Shown: positions 15,021 through 45,281 of the stretch, piece by piece
How positions within the stretch are numbered: position 1 is the stretch's first letter
Layout: the number at the start of each line of letters is the position of its first letter
Source of the DNA: Sulfuritalea hydrogenivorans sk43H
Lineage (GTDB): Bacteria; Pseudomonadota; Gammaproteobacteria; Burkholderiales; Rhodocyclaceae
Reading direction: 5' to 3'
Assembly (NCBI GenBank): GCA_945870205.1
Contig: CAMBRI010000005.1
Location: 1 to 48,266, forward strand
Length of the DNA stretch: 48,266 bases
Program-made: the position numbers and the translations under genes
Notes under the pieces: model-generated
Told to the model about the DNA's origin: nothing
The model's database searches: none
What the model saw: only the letters and a program-made list of their open reading frames with translations

Positions 15021-15029
15021 TGGTGAAGA

Positions 15030-27037: not shown

Positions 27038-27068
27038 TTTGCTTTTTTCGGGAAAATTACATGCCTTA

Positions 27069-27084: not shown

Positions 27085-27111
27085 CAGGTACTCCAACAAC
27101 AAATCCTAATG

Positions 27112-28008: not shown

Positions 28009-28012
28009 TTTT

Positions 28013-28552
28013 TCAAACTCGACCGCCCTTGAAGCCTTCGCGGAGCAAGCCGTATTCGACCATGTCCTCCCACTGGCCATTGAGGAAGAGGTGCTTGCGG
28101 CGACGGCCTTCCTCGACCATGCCCATCTGCAAGGCCAGCTTCTGCATGCCGATATTGGTGCCAGCGGTGCCGCAGTAGACGCGTTCCAGGTTGAGGCTCT
28201 CGAAACCGTGGCGCAGCAGCGCCAGCGAGGCATTGAGGCCAACCGACTTGCGCCAGTGCTTACGGTTCCCAATCAGTATCGCGTATTCGGCGTTGCGGTT
28301 GATGAAGGAGATGTTTTGCAGGCTGACGTTGCCGATATGGCCGTCGTCCTGGTGGCAGATCGCCCACACCACATGGTCTTCACGGTTCAGGTTGTCGTAG
28401 TACTCGCGAAACCAGTTTGCATTCTTGAAGAACTTTCCGTGGGAGTTGTACTTGCAGACTTCCTGATCTTCGAACCAGGATTGGTAAGGACCGTTCAGGT
28501 CGCTTTCGCGCAGACTGCGCACGAAGTAGCCATCGGCAAGTTCGTGGATCAT
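28013..28552 (-). CDS. GNAT-family N-acetyltransferase (RimJ/RimL/PseH-like)
   Basis: A 179-residue GNAT protein; ATG 28552 overlaps the DegT stop as ATGA. YFVRSLRESDLNGPYQSWFE (about residue 8), VVWAICHQDDGHIGNVSLQN (about 61), AEYAILIGNRKHWRKSVGLN (about 87, the acetyl-CoA loop is Q/RxxGxA-like but reads NRKHWRKSVG) and LALQMGMVEEGRRRKHLFLN (about 138) are typical. It directly follows a DegT aminotransferase, as expected for an enzyme that acylates the new amino group. PseH is one member of this group; a second GNAT domain is fused to the aldo/keto reductase at 39564-40952. Confidence 0.85.
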   Translation of the reverse strand: MIHELADGYFVRSLRESDLNGPYQSWFEDQEVCKYNSHGKFFKNANWFREYYDNLNREDHVVWAICHQDDGHIGNVSLQNISFINRNAEYAILIGNRKHWRKSVGLNASLALLRHGFESLNLERVYCGTAGTNIGMQKLALQMGMVEEGRRRKHLFLNGQWEDMVEYGLLREGFKGGRV

Positions 28553-29841: not shown

Positions 29842-30803
29842 AGGGCTGCTTTCATCTTCAAAAGCGATTTCAAGGTTTGGAGCGCATCTTCGCCCGTGCA
29901 CAAGCTTGAAGGTTTGCCGCGTAAGCAGGCGCCCACATTATCGACCACATGCCATTGCAGCTTATGGCCCTCCGTAGCAATCTTTTCTCCGGGCAGGGAA
30001 AGCACTGTGTATTCCGGAAAATCGGGGTCCGTGCCTACAGCCTGCCATAGGATTTTTGCACCGCCCTGCTCATAACGCAAACAACCGTTGGGAGCGACCA
30101 GCTGAACCTCGTGGTGGGAAAAATTCTCTTCTTTTGCCGCCAGGAAGCTCACTTCGCCGGCCGAAAGTTTCACCTGAATATCCGGTTCGATGTCCTCCTC
30201 GCCCCAGGGGCGGCCAGAATTGATAATCGCGAAGGATTCGACCGGGCCCAGCCAGAATTCGAGCAGATTCGAGAAGTGGGAGCCGTTGTGCAGCAAGCCC
30301 TTGCAGTACCAGAGGACGCCCTTGAGCGGCATGGCAATGCGCCCGTCCTGCAGGCGGCGCTTAATTTCCAGCACCCCCGGCTCGACCCGGCGCAGATAGT
30401 TCACATAGAGCAGGCAGCCGGCTTGGCGGCAAGCGGCCACCATAGTCTCGGCTTCTTCCAGCGTATAGGCCAGCGGCTTCTCGCACAGGATTAGCTTGGG
30501 CTTGGCATGGCGCAAGACCAGGCCCATGGACTCGGCGTGGTATCGCGTAGGTGAAGCGATCACCACCACGTCGGGTTTGAGCGTGCTCAGGCCCTCGGCC
30601 AAGTCGCTGCCTGCCCAGACCCCGTAGCGCCCGGAAAAGCGCTTACAAGCCACCGCATCGGGATCCACACCACCGGCCAGCTCGAAATCCGGATGGCTGG
30701 CGAAGGCCTTGGCGTGGGTAGATACCACTTCGGGGTCAGCTACGTCGAAATCGTAGCCCACCCCGACCTGACCCAGACCGACTAGGAGGACCTTGTACTT
30801 CAC
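29838..30803 (-). CDS. Gfo/Idh/MocA-family oxidoreductase
   Basis: A 321-residue protein. KYKVLLVGLGQVGVGYDFDV opens the Rossmann fold; VVVIASPTRYHAESMGLVLR (about 76) and LILCEKPLAYTLEEAE (about 103) with the EKP motif are diagnostic; the C-terminal alpha/beta domain has GSHFSNLLEFWLG (about 172). The start is GTG 30803, overlapping the previous stop as GTGA. Members in O-antigen loci (WbpB, WlbA) oxidise C3 of a nucleotide sugar before transamination, which fits the DegT and GNAT genes that follow. The substrate is not fixed by sequence. Confidence 0.88.
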   Translation of the reverse strand: MKYKVLLVGLGQVGVGYDFDVADPEVVSTHAKAFASHPDFELAGGVDPDAVACKRFSGRYGVWAGSDLAEGLSTLKPDVVVIASPTRYHAESMGLVLRHAKPKLILCEKPLAYTLEEAETMVAACRQAGCLLYVNYLRRVEPGVLEIKRRLQDGRIAMPLKGVLWYCKGLLHNGSHFSNLLEFWLGPVESFAIINSGRPWGEEDIEPDIQVKLSAGEVSFLAAKEENFSHHEVQLVAPNGCLRYEQGGAKILWQAVGTDPDFPEYTVLSLPGEKIATEGHKLQWHVVDNVGACLRGKPSSLCTGEDALQTLKSLLKMKAAL

Positions 30804-31540
30804 GTCGGGCGCGCGTCATTGCGCTGAACCATGTCGTTGATCTTTAGCACCTGAGGATTGGCCCGCAGGAAACGGATCACGTCGCCACAGCCGAACAGCA
30901 GATTGTCCTTGCCGAGGTTCTCGATCAGCGTACGGATAAGCTCGTAATCCGCCGGTTCATCGAGCGTCAGCCCCAGGCCCGGCCAATGCAGCGAGGGCGG
31001 CGCGACGAGATAAACATGCGGAAACAGCTGCGGATTTTTGACAATATGGCGCGACACGTGTTCGCGGTCCTGCGGATCGGCGGTCATGGAAAAAGATTTC
31101 TTCAGCGCCTCCAGCGTGAATACTTGCGTGTCCATGCCGTCCGGATAACTGCTGATGAAAGAGTTGGCGCAATAAACCGCGTTGTTGCGCTTGAATACTC
31201 GGATGGTCTGCTCGATCAGATCCGGATCGATGATAGGACAGTCTCCGGTGATCTCGACCACCACGTCTGCCTGTGCCGATTCAGCGGCGCCGATGACGCG
31301 CGCCATCACATCCTCTTCGCTGCCGCGGAAAACCTTGATGCCATCCTTCTCGGCGAATTCGGCGAGCACGTCGTCGGTCGCGTTGACAGTAGTCGCCAGC
31401 ACGATCTCGTCGATGGACTGCACCGTCTTGAGGCGACTCGTCAGATGTGCCAGCATGGGGCGCCCCAGCGCCGGCAGCATAACCTTGCCAGGCAATCGGG
31501 ACGAGGTCATGCGTGCTTCTATGGTTGCAACGATTTTCAT
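30800..31540 (-). CDS. SpsF-like cytidylyltransferase-family protein
   Basis: A 246-residue GT-A-type nucleotidyltransferase. KIVATIEARMTSSRLPGKVM opens with the CMP-Kdo/NeuA-like nucleotide loop in its SpsF form, AQADVVVEITGDCPIIDPDL (about 90) has the metal-site Asp region, and LTLDEPADYELIRTL (about 190) follows. SpsF-type proteins are common next to pseudaminic/legionaminic synthesis genes, but their activity is less certain than NeuA or PseF; a second sugar cytidylyltransferase role or a transferase role is possible. It lies 10 bp after pseF. Two cytidylyltransferase-like genes in a row suggest two activated sugars or a regulatory partner. Confidence 0.8.
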   Translation of the reverse strand: MKIVATIEARMTSSRLPGKVMLPALGRPMLAHLTSRLKTVQSIDEIVLATTVNATDDVLAEFAEKDGIKVFRGSEEDVMARVIGAAESAQADVVVEITGDCPIIDPDLIEQTIRVFKRNNAVYCANSFISSYPDGMDTQVFTLEALKKSFSMTADPQDREHVSRHIVKNPQLFPHVYLVAPPSLHWPGLGLTLDEPADYELIRTLIENLGKDNLLFGCGDVIRFLRANPQVLKINDMVQRNDARPT

Positions 31541-31549
31541 GGGTCGTCC

Positions 31550-32254
31550 TTACTTGGCGCGGGCACTACGGACGCGGTAGATCGCCTCTGCCAGTTGCCA
31601 GTCCTGTTCATCGTCGATGTCGATGGCCGTGCCCTTGGGCAGCACATAGCCGATAAAACCGCTGTCGGATCCCGCGCCGTGCGATTCGAGCACGCGCGCG
31701 GACGGGAAGGCGGCGAAACTGCCGGCATCGAAGTAGCGCTTTTCGATGTCCTGCGAGCGCACCGCAAACATGCCGGCCTGCACGGGGGTCAGCGCACCGT
31801 TGGCACCGCGACTGAAGGCCCACTCGATGGGCGCCGGATATTCGGAGACGGCGAGCAAGGGTTGCTTCGAGCCGGCCTCGCGGAACAGCGTGGCAGCCTT
31901 CTCCAGATCCTGCGCATCGATAAGCGGCGCGCAGGCCATCAGCAGCCAGATCTCATCGAAGTGCTGGCCGCGCTTGGCATATTCCTCGGCGACATAATGC
32001 AGCACCGGCATAATTGGCGTGTGGTCATCGGCCAGCTCTTCCGCGCGCGGGAAGTCCGGAGGAAAACCAAAATCAGCCGCCACCGCACGGATGCTTTCGC
32101 TTTCGGTGGAAACATGGATGGCGGAAAACAGGTCGCTGTCGCGCGCCACGCCCAACACATGAGTGATCATGGGCTGGCCGCAGAAATCGCGGATGTTCTT
32201 GTTGGGAATTCGCTTGGAGCCGCCGCGCGCAGGAATGATGGCAAGACGCTTCAC
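31550..32254 (-). CDS. pseF: Pseudaminic acid (nonulosonate) cytidylyltransferase
   Basis: A 234-residue NeuA-family enzyme; GTG 32254 overlaps the WbqC stop as GTGA. LAIIPARGGSKRIPNKNIRD is the CTP-binding loop, followed by FCGQPMITHVL (about 25), HVSTESESIRAVAADFG (about 48), FDEIWLLMACAPLIDAQDLE (about 97) and AIDIDDEQDWQLAEAIYRV (about 210), which holds the metal-binding Asp pair. PseF forms CMP-pseudaminate from the free nonulosonate and CTP. The SKRIPNKN form of the loop and the company of pseC, pseG and pseI point to the Pse branch. A legionaminic specificity is less likely because no NeuC-type hydrolase is seen. Confidence 0.88.
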   Translation of the reverse strand: MKRLAIIPARGGSKRIPNKNIRDFCGQPMITHVLGVARDSDLFSAIHVSTESESIRAVAADFGFPPDFPRAEELADDHTPIMPVLHYVAEEYAKRGQHFDEIWLLMACAPLIDAQDLEKAATLFREAGSKQPLLAVSEYPAPIEWAFSRGANGALTPVQAGMFAVRSQDIEKRYFDAGSFAAFPSARVLESHGAGSDSGFIGYVLPKGTAIDIDDEQDWQLAEAIYRVRSARAK

Positions 32255-32955
32255 GCACTCACCTCGACTCCGCTACGGATCAGGTCAGCGCTGCGGTCGC
32301 CGCAATTGAAGAGCATATCGATGACGGACATATAGGGAAGAAAGTCGCCAAACAACTGAGGGTACTCCGGATGGCGATAGTTGAAGTAGCACACTGGCAC
32401 GCCAATCTCGTCAAAAGCGCTGGATTCTTCCAGATAGTCCCTCGAACCGGGCACGGAAACGTACTCGGTCGCGCCGACTTCCTTGCACAGTGACGCCAGC
32501 AGATCGGCCTTGGCACCGCTGCCCTGCATCCGGCTCGAACGCAGCAGCGGGGTCGCTATGCCAAGCAAGACGCGGCAGTGCTCGATGATACCGATGTTCA
32601 GGTCCGCCAGCAGCGTCTGCGGCTGCTCGATACAGGCCAGCAGCCCGGGTCCGAGATCCTTGAAGCTCGCAGTCTTGACGTAATTAGCTTCTATGGTCTT
32701 GCGGTGCGTGCTGGCGAAATTGCTGGCGCTGTCGAGTTCAGTCTTGCAGATGATCTGCTCACGTTTACCTTTGCTGGCCACAGGCACAGTCAGCCACTGC
32801 GCGCCTTTCGCCGTCTTGATCTGATTGCGTTGCTGCCAAGAGCGCTTGGCGAATTGGACTGTATCCAGAAAGACGAACACATCCACCGCCTGCATTAGCC
32901 CGAAATATCCGCTCCAGGGCAGATAGGTGGGCTGCATGATCGCGACCCGGGTCAT
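32251..32955 (-). CDS. WbqC-family protein
   Basis: A 234-residue protein; ATG 32955 overlaps the previous stop as ATGA. VAIMQPTYLPWSGYFGLMQA at the N-terminus, FVFLDTVQFAKRSWQQRNQI (about 28), WLTVPVASKGKREQII (about 54) and YVSVPGSRDYLEESSAF (about 165) are the conserved WbqC blocks. The family occurs widely in O-antigen and nonulosonate loci, but its reaction has not been clear to me; a transferase-like acyl or amino-sugar function is often supposed. It sits between pseF and a beta-propeller glycosidase-like gene and is translationally coupled to both. I assign family only. Confidence 0.85.
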   Translation of the reverse strand: MTRVAIMQPTYLPWSGYFGLMQAVDVFVFLDTVQFAKRSWQQRNQIKTAKGAQWLTVPVASKGKREQIICKTELDSASNFASTHRKTIEANYVKTASFKDLGPGLLACIEQPQTLLADLNIGIIEHCRVLLGIATPLLRSSRMQGSGAKADLLASLCKEVGATEYVSVPGSRDYLEESSAFDEIGVPVCYFNYRHPEYPQLFGDFLPYMSVIDMLFNCGDRSADLIRSGVEVSA

Positions 32956-33869
32956 TCCGACACCGCCAGCCCGATGCCATCGAAGCCGTAATTGTTGCCG
33001 TTGTAGAACATGAAGCAACGATCATCGTGACGCACGACCGCGGCGTACTCGACCATTTCGCTGTCGAAGCCAGATGGACTCACGTCGATGCCAGCGAGAT
33101 GATCGAGGCGCTCCCAGTTCAGTCCATCCCTTGATTCTGCATAGCCTATGCGGTAGTCAACGCTCTTATAGGAGAACCACATGCGCCACAGTCCGTCCGC
33201 GAAGATAACGTAGGGTCGCGCCAGCGCATGTTCCGTGTCGTCTTTGAAATCGAGACAGACATGGCCTTCGCGCACCCAGTGCTTGCCATCCTTGGAGTGG
33301 CCGGTCTTGATGTTGTAACGCGGCAGATCCTTGTTCAGCCATTCATGGCCGGAGACATAGAAAATCCGATAGCCGTCGCCAGTGTGCACCACCCAGGGAG
33401 CGGTGTTCAGATAGGGGTCAGTGCGCGTGCGCTCCAGGATGGGCGCGCGCGACCAGCGTTCGAAAGTCTTGCCTCCATCCTTGCTGATAGCGAGACCGCC
33501 GAAGATGTGCATACGCACGGTCGAACCCGGATTCCAGCCGATGTAGTAGAGCCCGATCTCGCCGGACGGCAGACCTACGACGCAGGACGGCGTGACGCCG
33601 TTGTCGTCGAAACAGCCCAGCGCACCCGGCGCCAGCACCGCTTCAGCCGGGCAATCAACGACCCTGCCGTCGTTATTGAGATCCACAATCGCGTAGCCGA
33701 TATGCGAGCGGTTCCGGGCGTCACGGCCGGAAAAGAAGACGCGCACTAGACCATCGCCCAGGCTTTGCGGCGTCGGCACCATACAGTGCGTCTGCGCCCA
33801 AGGCAGGCGCTTGTCCGGCTGTATGATCAGCCCGAGCTTGCGCCACTGCTGCACCTTCCTGTCCTGCAT
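32952..33869 (-). CDS. Cytoplasmic beta-propeller protein, glycoside hydrolase/phosphorylase-like
   Basis: A 305-residue protein with repeated aromatic-rich strand motifs of a five-bladed propeller: DGLVRVFFSGRDARNRSHIG (about residue 39), GEIGLYYIGWNPGSTVRMHI (about 102), DGYRIFYVSGHEW (about 164), DGLWRMWFSYKSVDYRIGYA (about 226) and RCFMFYNGNNYGFDGIG (about 284). Acidic residues in blade positions (SGRDARN, DPYLNTAPW, SGFDSEMVEY) resemble GH43/GH32-type active sites. There is no signal peptide, so it acts inside the cell, which is odd for a hydrolase; it could process a nucleotide- or lipid-linked sugar, or act as a phosphorylase. It sits inside the Pse module, coupled to the WbqC gene. 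Confidence 0.7.
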   Translation of the reverse strand: MQDRKVQQWRKLGLIIQPDKRLPWAQTHCMVPTPQSLGDGLVRVFFSGRDARNRSHIGYAIVDLNNDGRVVDCPAEAVLAPGALGCFDDNGVTPSCVVGLPSGEIGLYYIGWNPGSTVRMHIFGGLAISKDGGKTFERWSRAPILERTRTDPYLNTAPWVVHTGDGYRIFYVSGHEWLNKDLPRYNIKTGHSKDGKHWVREGHVCLDFKDDTEHALARPYVIFADGLWRMWFSYKSVDYRIGYAESRDGLNWERLDHLAGIDVSPSGFDSEMVEYAAVVRHDDRCFMFYNGNNYGFDGIGLAVSE

Positions 33870-33874
33870 ACGTA

Positions 33875-34642
33875 TTATTCGATGATGATAAATGTACGGT
33901 CCGTCATGAACTGCGACTTCTTCACGCGGTACTTCATGTTCTTGAAGACTTCCTTGAACGCCCTTGTCTCGCCAGGGTAGTCCTTGTTATTCAGTTCGTC
34001 GAGCATGACCACGCTGCCAGGAACCAGGCTGGGCTTGATCGCATCAAGAGCGGCCCTGGTGGGTTCGTAGAGCGCCATATCGAAATATGCCAGCGCGACG
34101 ATCACATCGTCGTTCTTGGCAAACCAGGCGGGCGCGGACTTGCTTACGTCGCCTTGCACCAGTTCGTGCTTCTTGATGGCAGCGAGGACATTGTTCTTCT
34201 CGTGGTAGTCGATCAGTTCCTCCAGGTACTCGCGGTAGTTTTCGGCCACTTTGTAGCCGCCGATCTTGATGGTCTCGCTGCTGCGGTCCTTGTCCGAAAT
34301 CTCCGGATAACCCTGGAAGGTGTCAAAACCGATGACGCGTCGGCTCTGGTTGAAGGGCTCGTAGATGGCGCGCAGGTTCTCAAACAGCACTAGGTTCTGA
34401 CCCCACCAGGTGCCGAACTCGACGATGACTCCGGGTTGGTTCATGATCAACTGATAGGCTTCATTGACAAACAGGATCTTGGTCAGCGCGGAACTACGCA
34501 TGAACAGGCCCAGGCAGATGAGCAACTGGTCGTCTGGCATAGGACGGTCCTTGAACATCTGGTAGAGCAGTTCGCGGTGGGCAAGGTTTTGTGCGCTTGC
34601 CTTGGTTTCCATCGTGTAGCCAAAGTCTTTCTCGCTGGACAT
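33875..34642 (-). CDS. Class I SAM-dependent methyltransferase (TylF/MycF-like)
   Basis: A 255-residue protein. ATG 34642 has GAGAAG about 7 bp upstream and replaces a longer open frame that would run into the next gene. LIMNQPGVIVEFGTWWGQNL (about residue 64) is the SAM loop with EFGTWWG, RRVIGFDTFQGYPEI (about 100) is the second strand, and ALAYFDMALYEPTRAALDAI (about 182) and VVMLDELNNKDYPGETRAF (about 210) hold acidic residues typical of the metal-dependent TylF-like group. It probably O-methylates a sugar of the nonulosonate module. Its target is unknown. It is 5 bp upstream of the propeller gene. Confidence 0.78.
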   Translation of the reverse strand: MSSEKDFGYTMETKASAQNLAHRELLYQMFKDRPMPDDQLLICLGLFMRSSALTKILFVNEAYQLIMNQPGVIVEFGTWWGQNLVLFENLRAIYEPFNQSRRVIGFDTFQGYPEISDKDRSSETIKIGGYKVAENYREYLEELIDYHEKNNVLAAIKKHELVQGDVSKSAPAWFAKNDDVIVALAYFDMALYEPTRAALDAIKPSLVPGSVVMLDELNNKDYPGETRAFKEVFKNMKYRVKKSQFMTDRTFIIIE

Positions 34643-34662
34643 TGCGCTTCTCCCGTCTTTCG

Positions 34663-35349
34663 CTAAATTTTGAAGTACTTGCGTTTGAGCGCTTTTGCCC
34701 GGCGATCGTCTTCTTCGAAAACCTCGGCCGACGGCGCCAGTGCAACCGAACCATTGGGCATGTCGCGTGCAACCGCCGCCCCCATTGCGATGAAGCAATC
34801 ATCCCCGATCGTGCAAAAATCGCGCAGAGTGGCGTTCACGCCGAAAAAGTTGCGCTGCCCAATATTGCAATGCCCCGAGATCACGACATGCGAGGCGACG
34901 TAAGTGTGGTCACCGATCTGCGTGCCATGGCCAAGGTGATTGCCCGACCAGATCATCACATTGTGGCCGATGCGCACGCCCGGTTGTATGGTCTGGTTCT
35001 CGAGGATGAAGCAATTGTCGCCGATCGAAAGGTCGGGCCAGGTCACCGATTTGCTGCTGACATAGGAAGCCAGGCGATAACCGGCTGCCTTGGCCTGCTC
35101 GTACTTTTCCTGGCGCAGACGATTGAGTCGCGCATAGGAAAGCGCGACGTGCATCTCGAACTCCGCTGGCGGGAAGCGCTTGGTCACCTCGCTGAAAGGC
35201 ACCAGCGGCAGACCATGGAAAATGTCCCCCACTGCGAAACCGTCGTCCACGGTGAATGCGGCGACCCGATACTCGCTGTCGTTCTCGAAGTAGAACTTAG
35301 CGAGTTCGGCAATTTCTGCGGTGCCAAAGATGACGAGGGGTTTGCTCAT
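34663..35349 (-). CDS. PglD-like left-handed beta-helix acyltransferase
   Basis: A 228-residue protein. PLVIFGTAEIAELAKFYFEN is the N-terminal Rossmann-like nucleotide-sugar-binding domain typical of PglD/NeuD. From about residue 108 hexapeptide repeats build a beta-helix: SIGDNCFILENQTIQPGVRI, MIWSGNHLGHGTQIGDHTYV, with His residues (HLGHG) near the expected catalytic site. PglD-type enzymes N-acetylate UDP-4-amino-sugars and NeuD-type enzymes O-acetylate sialic acids, so either the Pse precursor or the finished nonulosonate could be the substrate. It follows a methyltransferase gene by 8 bp. Confidence 0.86.
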   Translation of the reverse strand: MSKPLVIFGTAEIAELAKFYFENDSEYRVAAFTVDDGFAVGDIFHGLPLVPFSEVTKRFPPAEFEMHVALSYARLNRLRQEKYEQAKAAGYRLASYVSSKSVTWPDLSIGDNCFILENQTIQPGVRIGHNVMIWSGNHLGHGTQIGDHTYVASHVVISGHCNIGQRNFFGVNATLRDFCTIGDDCFIAMGAAVARDMPNGSVALAPSAEVFEEDDRRAKALKRKYFKI

Positions 35350-35356
35350 TGCCGTT

Positions 35357-36055
35357 TCAGCGGCACAGCGCGATCAGGAAGTCGAGTGGCAGCTTGATCA
35401 GCTTCTCGGTCGAGCGGCCAGTTTCCACCGTCTCGAACACCTGCTCGCAGTAGTGCTGAAGATAGCGCTCGGAATCGCAGAAGAAGAATTCCTCGCCATT
35501 GCGGAAATCGAAATCGCGGATGCGGTAGCGGTGATCGCCCAGCACCTCGGCGCGCCGATAGATTTCGTGCTCGGGACCAACGGTGGAAATGTAGAGGCCG
35601 CCGCCCGGCTTGAGCACGCGACGGAATTCCTTCAGCGCCGCCAAGAAGTTTTCTTCGGTGCCTTCGTAGTGCAGGGTGTTCACCGAGAGCAGCAGATCGA
35701 AGCAGGCGTCGGGATAAGGCAGGGCGCGGTTGCTGCCGGCCCGGATCTTGGTCTTGTAACCGCGCTCGTCCATGATTTCCTGGACCGTCGCCGCCATTTC
35801 CGGATGCAGGTCCACGCCGTGGCATTCGCAGCCAATATCGGCAAAGGGGACCAGATTGTTGGCGAAGCCGCAGCCCACATCGAGCACTCGCCAAGAGGGC
35901 TGCGGTTTGAAAGGAATATTGAGGTAGGTGCTGCCGCCGAAGAGTATCTTCAGCATGACTTCGTTCGGCCACTTCGGATACTTCTGCTCTTTCTTCTCGC
36001 GTTGGATTTCCTTGTTCCACTTGTCGGTGGCGTGATTGGCATTCTGGGCGATCAT
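35357..36055 (-). CDS. Class I SAM-dependent methyltransferase (Methyltransf_11 type)
   Basis: A 232-residue protein. WRVLDVGCGFANNLVPFADI (about residue 54) is the SAM loop, ECHGVDLHPEMAATVQEIM (about 75) the second strand acidic motif, PDACFDLLLSVNTLHYEG (about 113) and LKEFRRVLKPGGGLYISTVG (about 136) the remaining class I blocks. GGAGG is 7 bp before ATG 36055, which overlaps the pseI stop as ATGA, so strong expression and coupling are expected. It is one of several methyltransferases in the operon; the acceptor is not identifiable. Confidence 0.85.
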   Translation of the reverse strand: MIAQNANHATDKWNKEIQREKKEQKYPKWPNEVMLKILFGGSTYLNIPFKPQPSWRVLDVGCGFANNLVPFADIGCECHGVDLHPEMAATVQEIMDERGYKTKIRAGSNRALPYPDACFDLLLSVNTLHYEGTEENFLAALKEFRRVLKPGGGLYISTVGPEHEIYRRAEVLGDHRYRIRDFDFRNGEEFFFCDSERYLQHYCEQVFETVETGRSTEKLIKLPLDFLIALCR

Positions 36056-37074
36056 TTGGCTCCTCCGAAAGTCAGCAAATCCCAGTTCAGGGGCTGGTCC
36101 TTTTCCACGGACCGGGCCAGGGTGGCGCCGACCACGGAAGACGCGTAGCGCGCGCGCAGGCCGACGGCCGGGCGCTTCGTGATGATGTCCGCCTGCGTGA
36201 TGGTCTCGCCCTTGGCCATATTGCGGGCGAGGTACAGGCCTTCGCGACGGCCCAGCTCCTTTTCCTTCGGTAGCATCTGCTTTTCGCCGGAGCCCAAGGC
36301 TTCGTGCGCTTCGCGAATCGCGACCACATAGGACTTGAGTTCGTCGGGTTCGAGGGCATAGAAGTGATCAGGGCCGGCCCCCTTCTTGTCCAGGGTGTAA
36401 TGCTTTTCGAAAACCGTGGCGCCAAGCCCAACAGCGGTAATGGCGGCGACTTGGCCCAAGGTATGGTCGGAGAAACCGACCGGGCAGTTGAAGCGCCGCG
36501 CCAGCGACTGGATAACGCGCAGGTTGACCAGTTCATTGGGCAGGGGATACATGGCGCCGCACTGCAGCAGCACGATCTGATCGTTGCCGACGCCGAGACA
36601 TGCGTTGACCGCCTCTTCGATATCGACCATGTCGCACATGCCGGTCGAGATGATGACTGGCTTGCCGGTCGAGGCCAGTTTGTGCAGGAAGCCGAGGTTG
36701 GTGGTTTCCGAGGAGGCCACCTTGTGTGCCGGCGTCTTGACAGCTTCCAGCACATCGACCGAGTCCATATCAAAGGCCGAGGCCATGAAATGCAGGCCCT
36801 GATCATTCGCATGCTTACTTAGGAGCGGCACCCATTCGGCATCGAGCTCGATGGACTTGAAGATGTCGTAAAGGCCGTCGCGGTTGGGATAGAGAGCGTC
36901 GGCGCGGAACAACTGGAACTTGACGGCGTTGGCGCCGGACTGCGCCGCCACGTCGATCAACTTGTGCGCCTTATCAAGGTTCTTGTCGAAGTTCGACCCG
37001 ACCTCGGCAATGATGTAAGGGCTTGCGCTGCAACCGACCGGCGTTTCGGCAATCTTCAACTCGTTCTTCAGCAA
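36052..37074 (-). CDS. pseI: Nonulosonic acid synthase (PseI/NeuB family)
   Basis: A 340-residue protein. [20 protein letters not shown] (about residue 20), [20 protein letters not shown] (about 48), [20 protein letters not shown] (about 100), [16 protein letters not shown] (about 140), [14 protein letters not shown] (about 196) and [20 protein letters not shown] (about 217) define the NeuB barrel; a C-terminal SAF domain has [15 protein letters not shown] (about 284). It condenses a 6-deoxy-diacetamido-hexose with PEP. The start is TTG 37074, supported by a strong AAGGAG 5 bp upstream; the start lies inside the end of pseG. The Pse assignment rests on neighbours pseC and pseG. Confidence 0.92.
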
Positions 37075-38114
37075 GATAACTCCTTCTTGATTTCGCTAAA
37101 CAGGCGCTCGGTGCCTGTGCCATCCACCATTGCCCTGCCCCGCTTTGCCATGGTGCGGCGCAAGGCAGCATTGTTCAAAAGCCTGGCCGCCTCATGTCCG
37201 ACGCGTTCTGCCGACACCCCAACGCCGAGATCAACCGACGTCTTCATGGCGGCAAAAGGGCGATTGACCGAATCATGATGCCCATCGATCGAGAACAGCA
37301 AGGCTGGTGTCGCGGTCGCCGCAAGCTCGTATTTCGTCAAGCCGTTCGCGCCTATGGCCAGATCGCACCACAGCATTTCGTTCAGAAGCGTCGGGGGCGA
37401 CGTCAAGAGCGCAATCTGATGGTGCGACCTTGCCACCAAGCGCTCAACTTCGGCGCACAATTGAGCGCTGAACAAAGGGCCGACCACCGCCCGGATCTCC
37501 AGGAACTGGGGTACGGTTTCTAGCCCGCGCAAAACTTCGACAGTGTACCCTTTCGGATCGCTGCCTCCGCAACTGACCAGTACCCGATTCGCCTTCGGAC
37601 GCTGCCGGCGGGGCGGCAAATTGGCGTATTCGGGGGCCAGCAGGGCATATTCGGCGCCCTCCAGGTAGCGCCAGCGTGTGTCCTTTAGTTCTGCGGCCGG
37701 TGCCACATAGGGGCTGATGACGATATCCGCATCGAGCTTGGGCAGTTGCCGTGAAATCGACTCCTCGCCCAGCACGTCGATAGCCACCAGGCGGCGGCCA
37801 ATGCTGCGTAAGCGGCGGAACAGCAGAGGCGGCGTGGCGGCGGCAAAGAATCCCGGGTAGAGCAGGTCAACAATCACCACATCCGCCTGCAGACCTCCGC
37901 CCCGGGGCCAGTCTACGGTGCTCATGGAGGACTCGTCAAGCAGGATGCAGCCGAGGCCGGCCGCAATGACCCGCGCTTCGGCAGCCATATTACCGAACAC
38001 CAGAAAGCCGACATCCGCGCCATGCTTTTGCGCATACGCTGCCAGCGCGAGGCAGCGGTTCAGATGCCCGAAACCGATCGCATTGCTGGCGACGGAAACA
38101 AAGAGTATGCGCAT
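37068..38114 (-). CDS. pseG: UDP-2,4-diacetamido-2,4,6-trideoxy-L-altropyranose hydrolase (PseG-like)
   Basis: A 348-residue GT-B-fold hydrolase. ATG 38114 begins [20 protein letters not shown], where GFGHLNRC carries the catalytic His of Pse[16 protein letters not shown] (about 65), [20 protein letters not shown] (about 90), [19 protein letters not shown] (about 188) and [20 protein letters not shown] (about 263) with the substrate-binding SGGSD-like and ANG blocks are present. PseG removes UDP to free the sugar for PseI. Its last 7 bases overlap the pseI start. It is slightly longer than Campylobacter PseG and resembles the SpsG group, so substrate details may differ. Confidence 0.85.
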
Positions 38115-38154
38115 GGCTCTCAGATCGTACTGAACGCCTGATTTCAACGGATAC

Positions 38155-39498
38155 TCAGTTCAGGCGTTTAAAACCTGCGTGGCAGACCGGACCCTTGAGC
38201 AGCGACATGACATCGCGACCTTCCTCACATTCCTTTATTTGGGCGAACACGGGATCGAGTGCATCGAAGTAGCCGTCAACAATGTCCGGCGTGTGGGCCA
38301 GGCTGGAAAAGATCAGATTGCTGGCAAGAAAGCCCTTGCCCAGCATCTCTTGGGTGATCAAGGTTTTGTAGGCCAGCGCATTCGGACCATCGAAGCCGAA
38401 GCTAGCGATCGCCGGCAGACCGGCCACATTTATCTTCAGGCCATGTTTCTGCGCCAGCGTCTGCCAGCGCGCCATGATGCCGGTGCCGGTCTGGGTGATG
38501 CGTTCCCAAGACTTTTCGCGCTCCATGACTTCCAGCGCCTTCAGCGCCGCGGTCGGGCCGATGCGCTCGGTCCAGAAGGTGCTACTGATGAAGGTCGATT
38601 GCGCACTTTCCATGATTTCGCGGCGGCCGATGGTGGCGGTGATCGCATAGCCGTTACCCAGGGCCTTGCCGAACATGGCCATATCAGGTTCGACGCCGTA
38701 CATTTTGTGGATGCCGCCGAAGGTCTGGCGGAAGCCCGAGGTGCACTCGTCAAAGATCAGCACGATGCCGCGCTTAGTCGCAAGATCGCGCACCTTCTGC
38801 AGAAAGTTGTCCTGAGGGCCCTGATTGCGCATCACTTCCATCTTGATCACACCGATGTCGTGCTTATTCACGATATCTTCGAGTTCGACGTAGTTGTTGT
38901 AGTTGAAGGGGTAGACGGTGCCGCGCAGGTTCTGCGGCACGCCCTTTGGCTCGAGGCCGGGTAGCAGGTGACCGGCCAGATGGTTGTCGTCTCCAAGATT
39001 GGCAGCCAGATACCAGTCGTGCCAGCCGTGATAGCCGCAGATAGCGACTTTGTCCTTGCCCGTGGCGGCGCGTGCGATGCGAATGGCGATGGCGTTGGCT
39101 TCGCCACCCGATCGTGCGAAGCGCGCCATGGCAGCCCAAGGATGCAGTTCCACCAACTTCTCTGCAAGATGGACCTCCTCTGGACAATTTAAGGTGGACA
39201 TATTTCCGGCGGACACGGTCTGATGTACGGCTTCGTCCACTTCAGGATGACCGTAACCAAGAGTGTTCGTGCCGATACCCATGATGCACATATCGATGTA
39301 TTCGCGCCCGTCCAAATCCCATACACGGCAACCTTTGGCTTTGCTGAAGTAGGCAGGCCATTGTTCAGGCAAAAACATCTCAGCCCGCTTTGAAAGCAAC
39401 ATATTCCCTCCAGGGATAAGCTGCTTGGCCCGCTTCCAGAGTTCTTGTCCAGTTCCAAACCGGGAACCATTGTTTTGTTGCAGAGATTGCTCGGGCAT
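38155..39498 (-). CDS. Class III (glutamate-1-semialdehyde-like) aminotransferase
   Basis: A 447-residue PLP enzyme with GGAGAAA 6 bp before ATG 39498. [20 protein letters not shown] (about 68), [19 protein letters not shown] (about 126), [15 protein letters not shown] (about 153), [15 protein letters not shown] (about 247) and [17 protein letters not shown] (about 278, Schiff-base Lys) are all intact. It is not hemL by context: it lies between pseG and the GNAT/aldo-keto reductase fusion. Class III transaminases are found in some nonulosonate loci, where they may aminate a terminal carbon of the chain or an aldehyde made by the neighbouring reductase. That role is inferred only from position. 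Confidence 0.83.
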
Positions 39499-39563
39499 AT
39501 ATTTCTCCAGCTATCGTTTCGTAAGATGGATACTTCGACCTCAGCGAAGTATCGGTACCAGCC

Positions 39564-40952
39564 TTAGTGAGCGTTCCAAAGGGATGGATTGATCAAACTC
39601 TGGTCTTCACTCATCAGAGTGATTGGTGGCACTACTGTCGGGTTCTTGGCGCACGCGAGAATCTCCCGAAACTGCGCAAGACTGTCCACACCAACGACCA
39701 CACGGGCAATTTCTCGCTGCGACAATGCAAAGCTCATGCAAGCCTGCAGTGGGGTTAGGGAATGCTCCGCAAGCCAACAGTCCCACTGTTTCCAAAGAGT
39801 ATCCCAACGACTGAAACGCGAAGGCCTGCTCGCTGCGTCCATCAAAAGCAGGCCCTGCAAAAACACTGACCGAACGTGAACTTCAGTCCCCGCCAGATGA
39901 AGCTTTGAAAGCCAACCAGAGGTTGCCAACCGCCGGTCAATGGCATTGAATGGCGCCTGCACCATATCGAACTGAAAATGCGGCCAGAGCGATTCAAGTT
40001 CTTCAGGGGCATAAACGGAGACCCCGATCTTCTCGACCTTGCCCTGTTCCTTCAGTTCAGCAAGTGCACGGAAAAGCGTCGCCCCTCCTGCCCCAAGAAG
40101 CTGCTGCGGACGATGCAATAGCAGTCCGTAGAGCTTCGGTATCCTCAGACGTTTCAATGCCCCAAACACCGACTCTTTCACCCACCCGGAAATATCTTCG
40201 GTGGATTCTGGAACCGCTGGCAATTTTGTAACGACTCGCCACGGATCCGCCATTGTTTCGCCAAGCCGCTCCTCGCTAGCGCCGTAGCCAATTGCGGTAT
40301 CGATCGTACCAACTCCGCTCGCCCAGCCAAAGTCCAAAATCCTCGCCGCCTCATCAAGGCCAACTTGACCTGTTTTATTGGCAACGCCATAGGGCAATCC
40401 GAATTGAACAGTGCCAATGGCAACACGATTGACGGATGAATGGTGTCGAACCATCCAGGGATTGTTAGATTCGCCCTCGGCGAAATTTCGTCCGTGGTCT
40501 GCTCTAAATCCGGCTTTAAGGTAAGCCCTGATACCTGCCGTGTTATTGGGATCAACGCCTAACACTATTTTTGCAATGCCATGCTCGTCAAATAGCCACT
40601 GCGCACAGGCTTCCAGGACCTCTACCGCTACGCCCTTACCGCGCCAACCTCTATTCCCAATCAGAATTCCCATTGTTGCAGAGCCACCCAAGCTATCACT
40701 CGGCTCAAACTTTATGTTGCCAATATGTTCATTGGTGCCTCTCACAAATATTCCAAAGAACACAACATCGCTTTTGTGTTCTCTTTGTGCAACATAACTA
40801 CGTAACGAGTCTAAATCATAGGTTGGGTCAGCAGCCTCTATGAATCGATTTGAATTCTGATCTCGAATCCAACTGAGATATTCGTCCGATACGTCAGCAA
40901 CGGTAAGGTGCCGTAGATAGAATCGCGACGTTTCAATCGAAGATTTCAACAC
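39564..40952 (-). CDS. Fused GNAT acetyltransferase and aldo/keto reductase (PseH-AKR type)
   Basis: A 462-residue fusion. Residues about 1-170 are a GNAT domain: SRFYLRHLTVADVSDEYLSW, FFGIFVRGTNEHIGNIKFEP, TMGILIGNRGWRGKGVAVEV (acetyl-CoA loop RGWRGKGVA) and NNTAGIRAYLKAGF. From about 175 to the end is an aldo/keto reductase: VAIGTVQFGLPYGVANKTGQ, GVGTIDTAIGYGASEERLGE (the Asp/Tyr active-site region), LYGLLLHRP and IGVSVYAPEELESL. The GNAT part resembles PseH (N-acetylates the 4-amino of UDP-AltNAc-4N) and follows pseC, as expected. The start is GTG 40952 inside the end of pseC. The AKR substrate is unknown. Confidence 0.88.
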   Translation of the reverse strand: MLKSSIETSRFYLRHLTVADVSDEYLSWIRDQNSNRFIEAADPTYDLDSLRSYVAQREHKSDVVFFGIFVRGTNEHIGNIKFEPSDSLGGSATMGILIGNRGWRGKGVAVEVLEACAQWLFDEHGIAKIVLGVDPNNTAGIRAYLKAGFRADHGRNFAEGESNNPWMVRHHSSVNRVAIGTVQFGLPYGVANKTGQVGLDEAARILDFGWASGVGTIDTAIGYGASEERLGETMADPWRVVTKLPAVPESTEDISGWVKESVFGALKRLRIPKLYGLLLHRPQQLLGAGGATLFRALAELKEQGKVEKIGVSVYAPEELESLWPHFQFDMVQAPFNAIDRRLATSGWLSKLHLAGTEVHVRSVFLQGLLLMDAASRPSRFSRWDTLWKQWDCWLAEHSLTPLQACMSFALSQREIARVVVGVDSLAQFREILACAKNPTVVPPITLMSEDQSLINPSLWNAH

Positions 40953-42142
40953 GAGAAAACAGCCTTCATGGCTTCGATAACTCGGTCTTGCTCCTGGTTG
41001 GTAAGACTGGGGTACAAGGGAATTGAAATGGCTGATTCTCCGTAAGCTTCTGCCTCGGGATAGTCTCCCGACTTGAAGCCGAGATTGCGGTAATAAGGTT
41101 GTAGATGAACCGGAATGTAATGAAGTTGCACGCCATAATTCCTTTGCCGCAACTCATCAAAAACTTGCTTATGGGTCTTGGCCGCAGACCCGCCCTTGAT
41201 ACGCACTACGTAAAGATGAAACGCCGACCGATTTTCGGACTGCACAAATGGTAGCCTTATCGGCAAGTCCTTAAGCGCTTCATCATAACGAGCGGCCAGC
41301 GCGTTACGTCGTGCCACGACCGCATCCAGCCGTTCAAACTGACTCAGACCCAGTGCCGCATGTATATCCGTCATGCGATAGTTGTAGCCTAGGAACTGCT
41401 GCTCATAGTACCAAGGTGCCTTGTAGTGATACGACGCGGAGTCGCTTTCTGGATCACTGCCATAACCTCGCATCCGGGTTCGGTCGCGAACAATGCCATG
41501 ACTGCGATACATTGCCATGCGTTCGGCAAGTTCGCTGTCATTCGACAACGCCATGCCGCCCTCACCGCTGGTGATAATTTTCACCGGATGAAAGCTGAAA
41601 ATTGTGATGTGAGACCAACGACAACTTCCAACCATTTCATCATTTCTTGATGCACCTATGGCGTGGGACGCATCTTCCAGCACCTTAAAGCCATATTCCT
41701 GAGCCAGCGCCCAAATCGCCTCCTGCTCCGTCGGCTGTCCAGCAAGATGTACTGGTACCACTACCTTAGGCAAACGCCCCAACCGTTTGGCTACCGCGAG
41801 TTTTTCACGAAGCGCTGTCACGCTCATATTCCAGGTAACCGGGTCGATATCGACGAAGTCGACCTCCGCACCGCAGTAGCGCCCACAATTGGCAGATGCC
41901 ACAAAGGTAATCGGCACAGTCCAAAGCCAATCGCCTTTGCCTAACCCAAGCGCCAGGCAAGCAATATGCAGTGCCGACGTCGCACTGTTAGCTGCGACCG
42001 CATGCTTTGCATTTACCTTTGCCGCCACCGCCTGTTCAAAGCGAGAAACTGTGGGACCCTGGGTGAGGAAGTCCGAGCGCAGGACCTCGACCACCGCATC
42101 GATGTCGGCTTGGGTTATTTCTTGTCGGCCGTAGGGAATCAT
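40946..42142 (-). CDS. pseC: UDP-4-amino-4,6-dideoxy-N-acetyl-beta-L-altrosamine transaminase
   Basis: A 398-residue DegT-family aminotransferase; ATG 42142 begins IPYGRQEITQADIDAVVEVL, the PseC N-terminus. AANSATSALHIACLALGLG (about 51) binds the cofactor phosphate, TVPITFVASANCGRYCGAEV (about 75) is highly PseC-like, EDASHAIGAS (about 156) gives the pyridine-N Asp, and IFSFHPVKIITSGEGGMAL (about 178) carries the Schiff-base Lys. It aminates C4 of UDP-4-keto-6-deoxy-L-AltNAc-type intermediate. No pseB is seen beside it; FnlA at 7399-8409 makes the same keto sugar. It overlaps the GNAT-AKR fusion by 7 bp. Confidence 0.93.
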   Translation of the reverse strand: MIPYGRQEITQADIDAVVEVLRSDFLTQGPTVSRFEQAVAAKVNAKHAVAANSATSALHIACLALGLGKGDWLWTVPITFVASANCGRYCGAEVDFVDIDPVTWNMSVTALREKLAVAKRLGRLPKVVVPVHLAGQPTEQEAIWALAQEYGFKVLEDASHAIGASRNDEMVGSCRWSHITIFSFHPVKIITSGEGGMALSNDSELAERMAMYRSHGIVRDRTRMRGYGSDPESDSASYHYKAPWYYEQQFLGYNYRMTDIHAALGLSQFERLDAVVARRNALAARYDEALKDLPIRLPFVQSENRSAFHLYVVRIKGGSAAKTHKQVFDELRQRNYGVQLHYIPVHLQPYYRNLGFKSGDYPEAEAYGESAISIPLYPSLTNQEQDRVIEAMKAVFSC

Positions 42143-42220
42143 GGATTCAGATCTTCCGGATTTTGTCGCGGCGGTGGGCACGCCGCAGGGTCGGTGTTTT
42201 GCCGCAAGTTTCTTGCATCG

Positions 42221-43987
42221 TCAGCCTTGGGTCGGACGTTCCACAATTTCCTGGTATGCCCCGGTCCGGCTGATGGTCCCGTTGCTCAATTCGACTATCC
42301 GGCTGCAGTTCTTCAGCGTGGTCAGGCGATGGGCAACGATCAGGATCGTGAGGTCGTCACCCAGGCTTTCGATCGCCTGCATCACCGCCAATTCCGTGTC
42401 GTTGTCCAGCGCGCTGGTGGCCTCGTCGAACACGATCACGTCCGCCCGCTTGTAGAGCGCACGGGCAATACCGATCCGTTGGCGCTGGCCGCCCGAAAGG
42501 CGCACTCCTCGCTCGCCGACCAGGGTGCCGTACTGCTTGTCCCACGATTCGACGGTTTCGGCGATTTGCGCCTTTTGCGCGGCCTGGCGCACGCGATCGT
42601 GGTCTATCTGATCCGGTGCCACGCCGAAGGCGATGTTTTCGGCGATGGTGGTATCGGCCAGAAAAATGGTTTGCGGCACGTGGGCAATATGCGCCTGCCA
42701 GGCGCGGTGGTTTTGCTCGGTGACGGCCACTGAATCAATCGCGAGGCTGCCTGCGGTAGGCGGCAGCAAACCCATGATGATGTCCAGCAGCGTGCTCTTG
42801 CCGCTGCCTGTGGAACCGATGAAGCCGATACGGCTGCCTTTTGGTATCTCGAGGTCCAACCCCTGCAGCACCCAGAGCCCCTGCGGCAAATAGCGGAACG
42901 CGAGATTCTCCAGCGTGATGCCGTGCTTGTACGGAAGGGGCGCCGGCAGAGGCTCGTCCGCATGTGCGGGCAGCGGTTGGTCGAGCAAGTCCAGCGCATC
43001 TGCCAGCGATTCCTGACCGCCGCGCAACGACGTCCAACATGAATAGGCTTGTTGTAGCGCGGGCAGCAGGCGCTGTGCGCCAAGGGCCAATGCGCCGAGC
43101 ACGGGAATGGCGCTGGCAATGCCCGTCGATCGTCCAGCCAGCATGAACGCCAGCATGGCAATGAGCATCATGCCGAGCGCCTCGATGCCGTAACGCGGGC
43201 TGCCGGCGATGATCTGAATGCTCGCTGTGGCGCGCCGCAGCGAAAGATCTGCCTTGCGATAGATGGCACAGTGCGCCGCCTGGGTGCCGTCGATCAGCAC
43301 ATCCCGAATCCCGCCCAATCCCTCCTGCAGTGCCTTGATGACCCGATTCTGTTCCACGCTGACGCGTTGACTGTTGCTTGCCATGCGTTTCCTGGTGAGC
43401 AGGATCACAAACCCATAGATGGCGCCAAACCCCGCAAACGCTGCAGTAGCGACGACTGGTTCGATGACGAGCAGCGCAAACAGGATGCTGGCCATCGTGA
43501 CGATGCTGGTCAGAATGGTCAGGATCGGCATAAGCGTGAAAAAGACAACGCCGGTCGCTTTGCCCGAGATTCCGGCGATAACCTCGCTGCTGTTTCGCGC
43601 CACATGCACTAAATAGGGTTGGTAAAGTGTGCGGCGATAGATGCTGATGCTCAGATCTGCTCCGATTGCATGGCTGAGGCGGGTTTGCGCCCACAGCAGC
43701 AAAAGGCGCATGGCGCCCGAGAAAAGCGCCGCGAGTCCGAAGGCGATGGTCAGCGGCAACAGGAGTTGCTCCGGCTGCGTAAACCCGAACATCTGGATGA
43801 AGGGCTGGGCACGCGGGTGCGCGAAGACCTTGTCCGGTGCGGTCAGCACGCCGAGAAACGGCAGCACCACTCCAATGCTGACAATTTCAGCGAACGAAGC
43901 CAGGATCATCAAAACCTGCAGCAGCCCGAACTGGACACGCCGCCGGGGGCCGATGTGGCGCCACAATCTTTTAAGCAGATGCGTCAC
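42221..43987 (-). CDS. ABC transporter, fused permease and ATPase (PglK/MsbA-like lipid-oligosaccharide flippase)
   Basis: A 588-residue half-transporter. Six hydrophobic helices lie in about residues 15-320. The nucleotide-binding domain has RIGFIGSTGSGKSTLLDIIM (Walker A, about 385), IAHVPQTIFLADTTI (Q-loop, about 425), RGVRLSGGQRQRIGIARALY (signature, about 495), VIVFDEATSALD (Walker B, about 519) and ILIVAHRLTTLKNC (H-loop His). It is the first structural gene after the ops leader. PglK moves a lipid-linked heptasaccharide across the inner membrane, so this may be the polymer-unit flippase. The start is GTG 43987. About 80 bp separate it from pseC. Confidence 0.88.
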   Translation of the reverse strand: MTHLLKRLWRHIGPRRRVQFGLLQVLMILASFAEIVSIGVVLPFLGVLTAPDKVFAHPRAQPFIQMFGFTQPEQLLLPLTIAFGLAALFSGAMRLLLLWAQTRLSHAIGADLSISIYRRTLYQPYLVHVARNSSEVIAGISGKATGVVFFTLMPILTILTSIVTMASILFALLVIEPVVATAAFAGFGAIYGFVILLTRKRMASNSQRVSVEQNRVIKALQEGLGGIRDVLIDGTQAAHCAIYRKADLSLRRATASIQIIAGSPRYGIEALGMMLIAMLAFMLAGRSTGIASAIPVLGALALGAQRLLPALQQAYSCWTSLRGGQESLADALDLLDQPLPAHADEPLPAPLPYKHGITLENLAFRYLPQGLWVLQGLDLEIPKGSRIGFIGSTGSGKSTLLDIIMGLLPPTAGSLAIDSVAVTEQNHRAWQAHIAHVPQTIFLADTTIAENIAFGVAPDQIDHDRVRQAAQKAQIAETVESWDKQYGTLVGERGVRLSGGQRQRIGIARALYKRADVIVFDEATSALDNDTELAVMQAIESLGDDLTILIVAHRLTTLKNCSRIVELSNGTISRTGAYQEIVERPTQG

Positions 43988-44121: not shown

Positions 44122-44133
44122 CACGCTACCGCC
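44122..44133 (-). promoter_or_regulatory. ops element (RfaH recruitment site)
   Basis: The minus strand reads GGCGGTAGCGTG, an exact 12-base match to the E. coli ops element that pauses RNA polymerase and recruits RfaH through the non-template strand. It lies 134 bases upstream of the first structural gene and just downstream of a NusG/RfaH paralogue gene, the expected arrangement. The following bases (TCTGAAAGC) are not the E. coli U-rich ones. Confidence 0.9.
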
Positions 44134-44139
44134 ATGCCC

Positions 44140-44155
44140 GTGCATTTTGGTGCAC
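44140..44155 (-). repeat. Inverted repeat just upstream of ops
   Basis: The minus strand reads GTGCA, CCAAAA, TGCAC, a short hairpin 6 bases before the ops element. JUMPstart leaders of E. coli also contain stem-loops before ops. Function is inferred. Confidence 0.5.
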
Positions 44156-44268
44156 AGCACTTGCAGGTCACAGACCTCGCTTGTCTCGCTCACCCTTGGT
44201 GCCCGAATACCCCGCTGCACGGTCAAGGGACATCTTTAACGAACGTCTTTCTGCTGCCAACTCCGCCG

Positions 44269-44880
44269 TCAGTGGGCCACCAGCAACTGGTGATGGCTCA
44301 TGTTCACCCGGGTATCCTGCCCGAGCAGTTGCATCAACACGACAACCCGGTCCCGCGAAACGTCCGTTATCAGTCCCTCCAGCCCGGCCAGCGGGCCGTC
44401 GACGACGCGAACTCGTTCGTGGCACCGGAAGGGGCTGATGTCCTCGTCCTTTGCCGCGTTTTGACGGGCTTCGAATTCACGAATACCTATCAACGTTTCC
44501 GGTCGAATTACGGCCGGCTCCTGCCCGAAGCGAACGATGGCAGATACGCCGGAAGTCGAACGCACAGGTGCAATGGAGTGCGCATGAGATCCCGGTTGAA
44601 AAAAAATATACCGCGGAAACATCGCTTCCGTCTGTGCCTGCTGACGGCCACGGCGACGTTTCAGGACCTTGACTCGCGGGAAGTAGACGCCATAGCCTTG
44701 GCGAGCAAGGTTCTCGCACGCGGTCTGTTCCTGCCGAACCTTGGTATGCACCACATACCAAGGCAGACTTGCGACGGGGCCATTGACCGGGATCAACCCG
44801 GAGTTGGGCGGAAGCGCTGTTGCCAGTCTGGAAATCGACTGCTGACGGTGTTCTGGTGCCATGCCCCGTAGCTCGTTCAT
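44269..44880 (-). CDS. NusG-family antitermination factor, RfaH-like
   Basis: A 203-residue NusG paralogue. About 38 residues precede the NGN domain, which begins PWYVVHTKVRQEQTACENLA and has GYGVYFPRVKVLKRRRGRQQ and EAMFPRYIFFQPG (about 85-97). A C-terminal KOW domain follows (ERVRVVDGPLAGLEGLITDV, about 155-174). RfaH-type proteins bind RNA polymerase at ops and suppress pausing and Rho termination over long surface-polysaccharide operons. The ops element is in the leader just 136 bases after this gene. ATG 44880 overlaps the MarR stop as ATGA. The long N-terminal extension is unusual and may mean that translation begins further in. Confidence 0.9.
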   Translation of the reverse strand: MNELRGMAPEHRQQSISRLATALPPNSGLIPVNGPVASLPWYVVHTKVRQEQTACENLARQGYGVYFPRVKVLKRRRGRQQAQTEAMFPRYIFFQPGSHAHSIAPVRSTSGVSAIVRFGQEPAVIRPETLIGIREFEARQNAAKDEDISPFRCHERVRVVDGPLAGLEGLITDVSRDRVVVLMQLLGQDTRVNMSHHQLLVAH

Positions 44881-45209
44881 GCTGTGGCGTCTCTTTCCGC
44901 TTCTTGCCGCAGTTCTTCAATTTCATTGCGGATGACTTCATATTCGGCGAGTTTGTTCTTGAGGAAGTTAACCGTGAGGCGGGTCTTTTCCTCGATTCCG
45001 CTCGGGGTAAGCAGATAGCTATAAGCGAGCTTGTTATCGCTGCGACGAAAGTTATCCATCTTTACCAGCCCCTTCTGCACCAGCGCCTGAAGGCAGTAAT
45101 TGGCTTTGCCCAAGCTGACGCCCATCGCCTTGGCCATTTCCCGCTGCTGAATCGAGGGGTTGGCCTCGATGAGTCTTAGCAGTTTGTAATGATGGGGATC
45201 GGGAAACAC
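44877..45209 (-). CDS. MarR-type EPS-associated transcriptional regulator
   Basis: A 110-residue winged-helix protein. HHYKLLRLIEANPSIQQREM (about 6) and GVSLGKANYCLQALVQKGLV (about 29) form the DNA-binding helices, SYLLTPSGIEEKTRLTVNFL (about 64) the wing and start of a C-terminal helix, and the rest (to about 105) is likely a coiled coil (LKNKLAEYEVIRNEIEELRQ). Homologues stand at the head of exopolysaccharide operons beside a NusG/RfaH-like gene, as here. The start is GTG 45209; a stop codon lies 9 codons upstream, so little room for an earlier start exists. It may autoregulate through the tandem repeat at 45287-45306. Confidence 0.9.
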   Translation of the reverse strand: MFPDPHHYKLLRLIEANPSIQQREMAKAMGVSLGKANYCLQALVQKGLVKMDNFRRSDNKLAYSYLLTPSGIEEKTRLTVNFLKNKLAEYEVIRNEIEELRQEAERDATA

Positions 45210-45252: not shown

Positions 45253-45281
45253 AGTTTACCTGACTGCTCCAATAGTGGCAA
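45253..45281 (-). promoter_or_regulatory. Candidate sigma70-type promoter of the operon
   Basis: On the minus strand TTGCCA (45281-45276), a 17-base spacer, and TAAACT (45258-45253) resemble -35 and -10 boxes (5 of 6 and 4 of 6 matches to consensus). Transcription would begin about 35 bases before the MarR GTG. Seen by eye only. Confidence 0.45.

Follow-up and report, generated by a model that had tools for sequence, protein, structure and literature searches.

The long polysaccharide gene cluster in the window (the whole stretch of 48,266 nucleotides analysed here) is preceded by what is quite probably a betaproteobacterial antitermination leader of the RfaH/ops type, the factor for which would be encoded in the same transcript. 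An exact ops, a hairpin at near-fixed spacing from it, linkage and co-occurrence with an rfaH-like gene, and a polysaccharide cargo are all found. The broader proposal, that in Betaproteobacteria an RfaH-like factor is encoded inside its own operon and recruited to a conserved leader, hairpin plus ops, that closely follows its gene, is favoured on balance, with less confidence. The features concerned are as follows.

45253..45281, minus strand: promoter-like match TTGCCA-17-TAAACT upstream of MarR_EPS, tentative and at chance level
44877..45209, minus strand: MarR_EPS (TIGR04176) winged-helix regulator, 155.1 bits against a cut-off of 88
44269..44880, minus strand: RfaH-like NusG paralogue of 203 aa (P0001), from profile matches and residue comparison
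44135..44159, minus strand: hairpin TGCTGTGCA...TGCACGGGCA, its 3' end 1 nt before ops in the model, with compensatory changes among 31 sequences
44122..44133, minus strand: ops-type site GGCGGTAGCGTG, an exact match, with the same place kept in relatives
42221..43987, minus strand: first structural gene, a PglK/MsbA-like ABC transporter, from profile matches
1095..43987, minus strand: polysaccharide gene cluster on one strand, 27 ORFs scanned

A 12-mer scan of the window found the site at 44122-44133 on the minus strand to be the only exact copy of GGCGGTAGCGTG; allowing up to two mismatches gives 7 matches where 5.6 would be expected, and the exact copy alone stands out. The 12-nt ops lies in the operon leader, 135 nt from the stop codon of the RfaH-like gene and 134 nt from the start of the first structural ORF (43987), which bears out the original observation of an exact ops on the minus strand between a NusG/RfaH paralogue and the first structural gene. 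Bases 3-8 of ops are intact; G4, G5, A7 and G8 are reported to be essential for RfaH recruitment, and the central bases to be dispensable for pausing (PMC5995543). The long polysaccharide cluster expected downstream of the leader is also there, covering about 43 kb on the same strand and presumably transcribed as a single unit. It contains PseC, PseG-like and NeuB/PseI-like proteins, glycosyltransferases, epimerases, a HisF/HisH-like pair, a glycosyltransferase 4 and a PseB-like end, and several of the 27 scanned ORFs gave no Pfam match at the threshold used. The HisF/HisH-like pair (9325-10727, minus strand) and the PseC/PseG/NeuB-like genes (36052-42181, minus strand) suggest that the polysaccharide may contain a nonulosonic-acid or amidated sugar. 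An IS481-like transposase lies beside the cluster (46673-48190, plus strand). On the other side of the leader, the MarR_EPS frame and the beginning of the RfaH-like gene share 4 nt, and MarR_EPS stands upstream of rfaH in all ten genus members that carry the RfaH-like gene. A promoter scan of 43700-46000 gave one match against 1.0 expected, that is, at chance level, and none between rfaH and ops.

Conservation was followed at three distances. Among 61 near-relative genomes searched with the RfaH-like protein (E<=1e-15), 14 had a match, the own genome included, and 420 nt after the stop codon were scanned at each locus (156 in L015). Absence of the 12-mer from this place in close relatives, set beforehand as the test of the reading, was in the main not what was seen: the exact 12-mer occurs 53-192 nt after the RfaH-like stop in 10 of the 14 genomes, and in an eleventh (L007) it has one mismatch, at position 10. 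No 12-mer within one mismatch was found in the region scanned after the stop at L012, L016 and L018. The RfaH-like gene of L012 (G035:C23) is 68-69% identical, and downstream of it there is neither an ops nor a match to R1, the hairpin-plus-ops model built from ten leaders of the genus. Within the genus, the RfaH-like gene is present in 10 of 31 genomes and R1 matches the same ten at E<1e-12 (Fisher 2e-8); the other 21 gave two weak R1 matches (G023, 2.4e-4; G022, 3.8e-4), at loci without ops (L089, L090).

The order survey covered 399 genomes, 44 of which were RfaH-like-positive (protein match at E<=1e-15). R1 matched 20 of these 44 and 10 of the 355 negative genomes at E<=1.2e-4, a cut that is where the retrieved loci ended and was chosen after the fact, and an exact ops lay within the R1 match in 18 positive genomes and one negative one. 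As R1 was trained on ten ops-bearing genus leaders, its matches are biased towards sequences with ops, nor do related genomes count as independent; because R1 contains ops, its association with the gene is partly a matter of construction, of which the 12-mer scan of the rfaH flanks is free. In that scan, 42 distinct RfaH-like loci were read (14 near-relative and 29 order-wide, less one duplicate, L069; 17 of the 47 protein matches of the order survey are outside the loci read). An exact ops lies downstream of rfaH, on the same strand and within 800 nt, at 20 of the 42, at 47-788 nt from the stop codon, where about 0.003 would be expected by chance at the genus background rate (800 nt per locus, 42 loci). 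Upstream of the RfaH-like gene, the flanks read contain no exact ops at any of the 42. The 22 loci without a linked exact ops include the one-mismatch site of L007 and three with less than 400 nt of downstream sequence; flanks this short are found at L015, L052, L056 and L078. Taken together, the RfaH-like gene and ops being kept as a pair in relatives probably reflects a working switch. At L073 (G281:C13) the RfaH-like frame has an internal stop codon.

Leader and gene are not always adjacent. In RfaH-like-positive genomes, leaders are found on another contig or more than 500 kb from rfaH at L021, L024, L027, L031 and L044, and 2.2 kb downstream of rfaH at L048, distances that are uncertain because the assemblies are in pieces. 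At L030 (G170:C9) the leader lies 5.7 kb downstream of an intact gene, and a damaged RfaH-like piece (1679-1951) remains just upstream of it; L033 (G047:C28) has two hairpin-ops leader copies about 1 kb apart, one of them preceded by an RfaH-like C-terminal piece. The leaders away from an intact rfaH at L021, L024, L027, L030, L031 and L044 are followed by MarR_EPS, above the TIGR04176 cut-off in five of the six (54 against 88 bits in L044). The order at these six unlinked leaders is therefore ops-MarR_EPS, in contrast to MarR_EPS-rfaH-ops in the window; at L048 MarR_EPS precedes the leader. As read from translations, the next genes look like an aminotransferase (L024), an ABC transporter (L031), GalE (L030, L044), nucleotidyltransferases (L021, L027) and a GDP-mannose dehydratase (L048). 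Exact-ops leaders also occur where the protein search gave nothing at the threshold used, in two genomes, at L039 (G099:C5) and L092 (G032:C19), and an ABC-2-permease-like ORF follows the leader in L039.

The hairpin just upstream of ops that was first noted, and likened to JUMPstart leaders, was located at 44135-44159 and is supported by compensatory changes. The common layout is TGCT-stem-loop-stem-n-GGCA, one nucleotide, then ops. In a model-made and hence favourable alignment of 31 leaders, taken from 30 chosen loci, 214 of 226 cells pair (94.7%) and 8 of 11 hairpin pairs show changes on both sides; the covariation score of 0.161 compares with 0.071 for shuffled alignments, none of 500 reaching it, and falls to 0.037 or less when the pairing is slid. 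The ten genus leaders by themselves covary more weakly (2 of 11 pairs; 3 of 500 shuffles reached the score). On free folding, 0-2 unpaired nucleotides separate stem and ops in 29 of 31 leaders versus 10 of 19 controls, and the spacing is 0-1 nt in 24 of 31 leaders versus 7 of 19 control 12-mers (P 0.007). Hairpin energy was rejected as a discriminator, being hardly different between leaders (-10.1 kcal/mol) and chance 12-mers (-9.0 kcal/mol), so that only spacing and covariation, and not energy, set the leaders apart from control 12-mers. Two other lines were dropped: a competing stem, GGCA...TGCC around ops, pairs in 90% of cells, has no both-sided changes and is equalled by shuffles, and base counts conditioned on GGCGGTAGC were set aside. 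The modelled stem stops 12 nt short of U11. Hairpin-stabilised pauses have a stem-to-pause spacing close to 12 nt, and a role in pausing may be proposed for this hairpin. For E. coli ops, the pause has been assigned to class II, with backtracking, and set apart from the hairpin-stabilised kind (PMC5995543, PMC11001881).

Like JUMPstart RNA (RF01707), the leader has a hairpin directly 5' of ops and belongs to a polysaccharide operon. The RF01707 match in the window spans the whole model but scores 17.6 bits (E 1.1), below the gathering score of 35, and the family gave no match in 13 related loci at E<=1 or in five second-class leaders at E<=5. No related Rfam family matched above threshold, the sole match above it being a tRNA in L026. 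When the 27 nt before ops of the E. coli JUMPstart were folded, the stem ended 1 nt before ops; when the whole 39-mer was folded, it extended into ops G1. JUMPstart is listed for gammaproteobacteria (PMC2864571).

The RfaH-like protein has NGN and KOW domains above cut-off (PF02357, PF00467) and is 24% identical to E. coli RfaH; TIGR01955 is its best NusG-family model, at 119 bits, below the cut-off of 144.5. The Rho-contact loop, IFG in the NusG of the same genome, is LLG here, and F56, which serves tight binding to the polymerase, is present. Other E. coli RfaH residues kept are K10, R23, Q24, E48, T72, G74, V75, R138 and L142, and those changed are H20 (N), N70 (R), R73 (S), R16 (T), F130 (I) and I93 (L). 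Among ops-contact side chains K10 and R23 are therefore kept and H20 and R73 replaced, two of four; among residues related to autoinhibition and to the alpha-to-beta switch of the C-terminal domain, E48 and R138 are kept, with I at F130 and L at I93. Over 41 distinct loci, Q24, T72 and R138 are found in all 41, K10 in 39, E48 in 38 and R23 in 30; at position 20, 36 have N; at position 70, 40 have R; and at position 73, 9 have R and 7 have K. Alanine at H20 or R73 is reported to cripple E. coli RfaH, a change at R16 to be a strong defect, and K10, H20 and R73 to be required (PMC5995543). Given that requirement, either N20 and R70 would substitute here or recognition would be weaker and, because two of the four contact side chains differ, ops recognition may be partly re-wired or ops may act as a pause alone. 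The claim that the full RfaH-ops system operates here is borne out in part, with K10, R23, Q24, T72, F56, E48 and R138 kept and H20 (N), R73 (S) and R16 (T) changed. A structure prediction of the C-terminal domain, obtained from a two-row alignment, reached pLDDT 36 and was set aside.

Under the preferred reading, RNA polymerase would start, probably at a promoter lying upstream of MarR_EPS, and transcribe that gene and rfaH. The leader hairpin would then form and the polymerase would pause at the ops position matching U11, as the exact consensus pause suggests; the non-template ops bases could be shown to RfaH-like protein from the message just made, which would join the polymerase, through contact residues that are partly different. 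By excluding NusG and Rho, to which the lost Rho loop and the kept F56 point, the protein would allow the polymerase to complete the cluster of about 43 kb. A cis-linked positive loop had been proposed and is not supported: because rfaH lies before ops, it is already transcribed when ops is reached, loading there cannot raise rfaH itself, and only the later genes gain. The arrangement is more likely one of feed-forward or supply in cis, in which a transcript reaching ops has just encoded its factor.

Three other explanations were considered. The exact 12-mer could have fallen in this leader by chance, being common in GC-rich genomes: counted at any location, it turns up in 22 of the 31 genus genomes and in 199 of the 399 surveyed across the order, and among all 28 exact copies listed for the genus 9 are inside this leader and 19 outside. 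Because it is so common, the bare 12-mer is weak evidence by itself, and the case for ops rests on position and context. A chance origin, which is hardly credible, is contradicted by the conserved position, the surrounding leader and the co-occurrence with the RfaH-like gene, and the ops observation is real. Even at any location, the 12-mer is found in 32 of 44 RfaH-like-positive genomes versus 167 of 355 others of the order (P 0.001). The sole other exact copy in the own genome (G000:C111) was discarded as a target in trans, lying antisense in a long ABC-transporter ORF without leader sequence, and is probably a chance occurrence. It could also be hypothesized that MarR_EPS uses the inverted repeat next to ops as its DNA operator, with ops incidental or in another role. 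The repeat GTGCGC...GCGCAC is near-palindromic, and MarR_EPS is encoded upstream of the leader in the genus and before or after it elsewhere. However, the stem sequence varies from one family to another, its pairing and its proximity to ops being retained, and in several leaders the stem has 5 pairs around a 9-nt loop, a form unlike that of an operator, which makes this explanation improbable.

Somewhat less easily set aside, though still unlikely, is a constitutively active, ops-independent paralogue that loads in cis, with ops kept only as a strong pause during which the ribosome or a NusG-type factor could join. Action without ops is reported for monomorphic RfaH proteins that lack a few ops-binding residues and are encoded close to long operons (PMC13015549); H20, R16 and R73 are changed here, and the C-terminal fold prediction is the one at pLDDT 36. 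Against this, K10, R23, Q24, T72, E48 and R138 are kept, the central ops bases are conserved even though they are described as dispensable for pausing (PMC5995543), and the leaders on other contigs or more than 500 kb from rfaH in several RfaH-like-positive genomes suggest action in trans.

As in the E. coli RfaH/ops system, an exact 12-nt ops stands in the leader of a long polysaccharide operon and the factor is a NusG paralogue with the Rho loop lost and F56, E48, R138, K10 and R23 kept. Unlike in E. coli, the factor gene is just upstream of ops on the same strand, and H20 and N70 have become N and R, with R16 and R73 also changed. UpxY, TaA, ActX and monomorphic RfaH (PMC13015549) resemble the window's arrangement in having the factor gene in or beside the operon presumably served, but their recruitment is given as unknown or ops-independent in the available text of the sources (PMC7593976, PMC7819879, PMC13015549), whereas in the window the gene is followed by a conserved ops. 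Bacillus velezensis LoaP, also a NusG paralogue encoded near its operon, needs a small hairpin in the leader RNA; in contrast to the window leader, that hairpin is of the UNCG type, is bound by LoaP without ops, and LoaP antagonises NusA (PMC12691694). RfaH cluster CL4 is associated with an HTH transcriptional regulator, a description that MarR_EPS would fit (Wang et al. 2020, PMC7593976); no ops is described for CL4 loci in the accessible part of that paper, and one is present in the window. Operon linkage of NusG paralogues is already known for TaA, UpxY and LoaP, and Wang et al. (2020) present E. coli RfaH as the only family member with a detailed recruitment mode, recruitment of operon-encoded paralogues as unknown, and DNA contacts as late in RfaH evolution (PMC7593976). 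Singly, then, RfaH/ops, JUMPstart hairpins, operon-linked NusG paralogues and the hairpin-dependent LoaP are all on record, as far as the available texts go (PMC7593976, PMC7819879, PMC2864571, PMC12691694, PMC13015549). A literature search, covering titles and abstracts and few subscription papers, found no report from Betaproteobacteria in which ops or JUMPstart adjoins an RfaH gene, and no earlier report, within the literature searched, of an operon-linked NusG paralogue combined with a conserved ops.

If correct, the broader proposal would explain how some operon-encoded NusG paralogues are recruited, and ops recognition would be tied neither to action in trans nor to the E. coli contacts H20 and R73. 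The ops signal would then include, as an integral component, an RNA hairpin that covaries and lies about 12 nt from where the pause is expected. With factor gene and ops often adjacent and sometimes apart, the clade would offer a natural series for asking which came first, ops reading or the move to trans, and the same ops DNA facing a protein with H20 and R73 replaced would be a direct test of the recognition model. Together, these features may provide a handle on the expression of very long polysaccharide operons in environmental bacteria.
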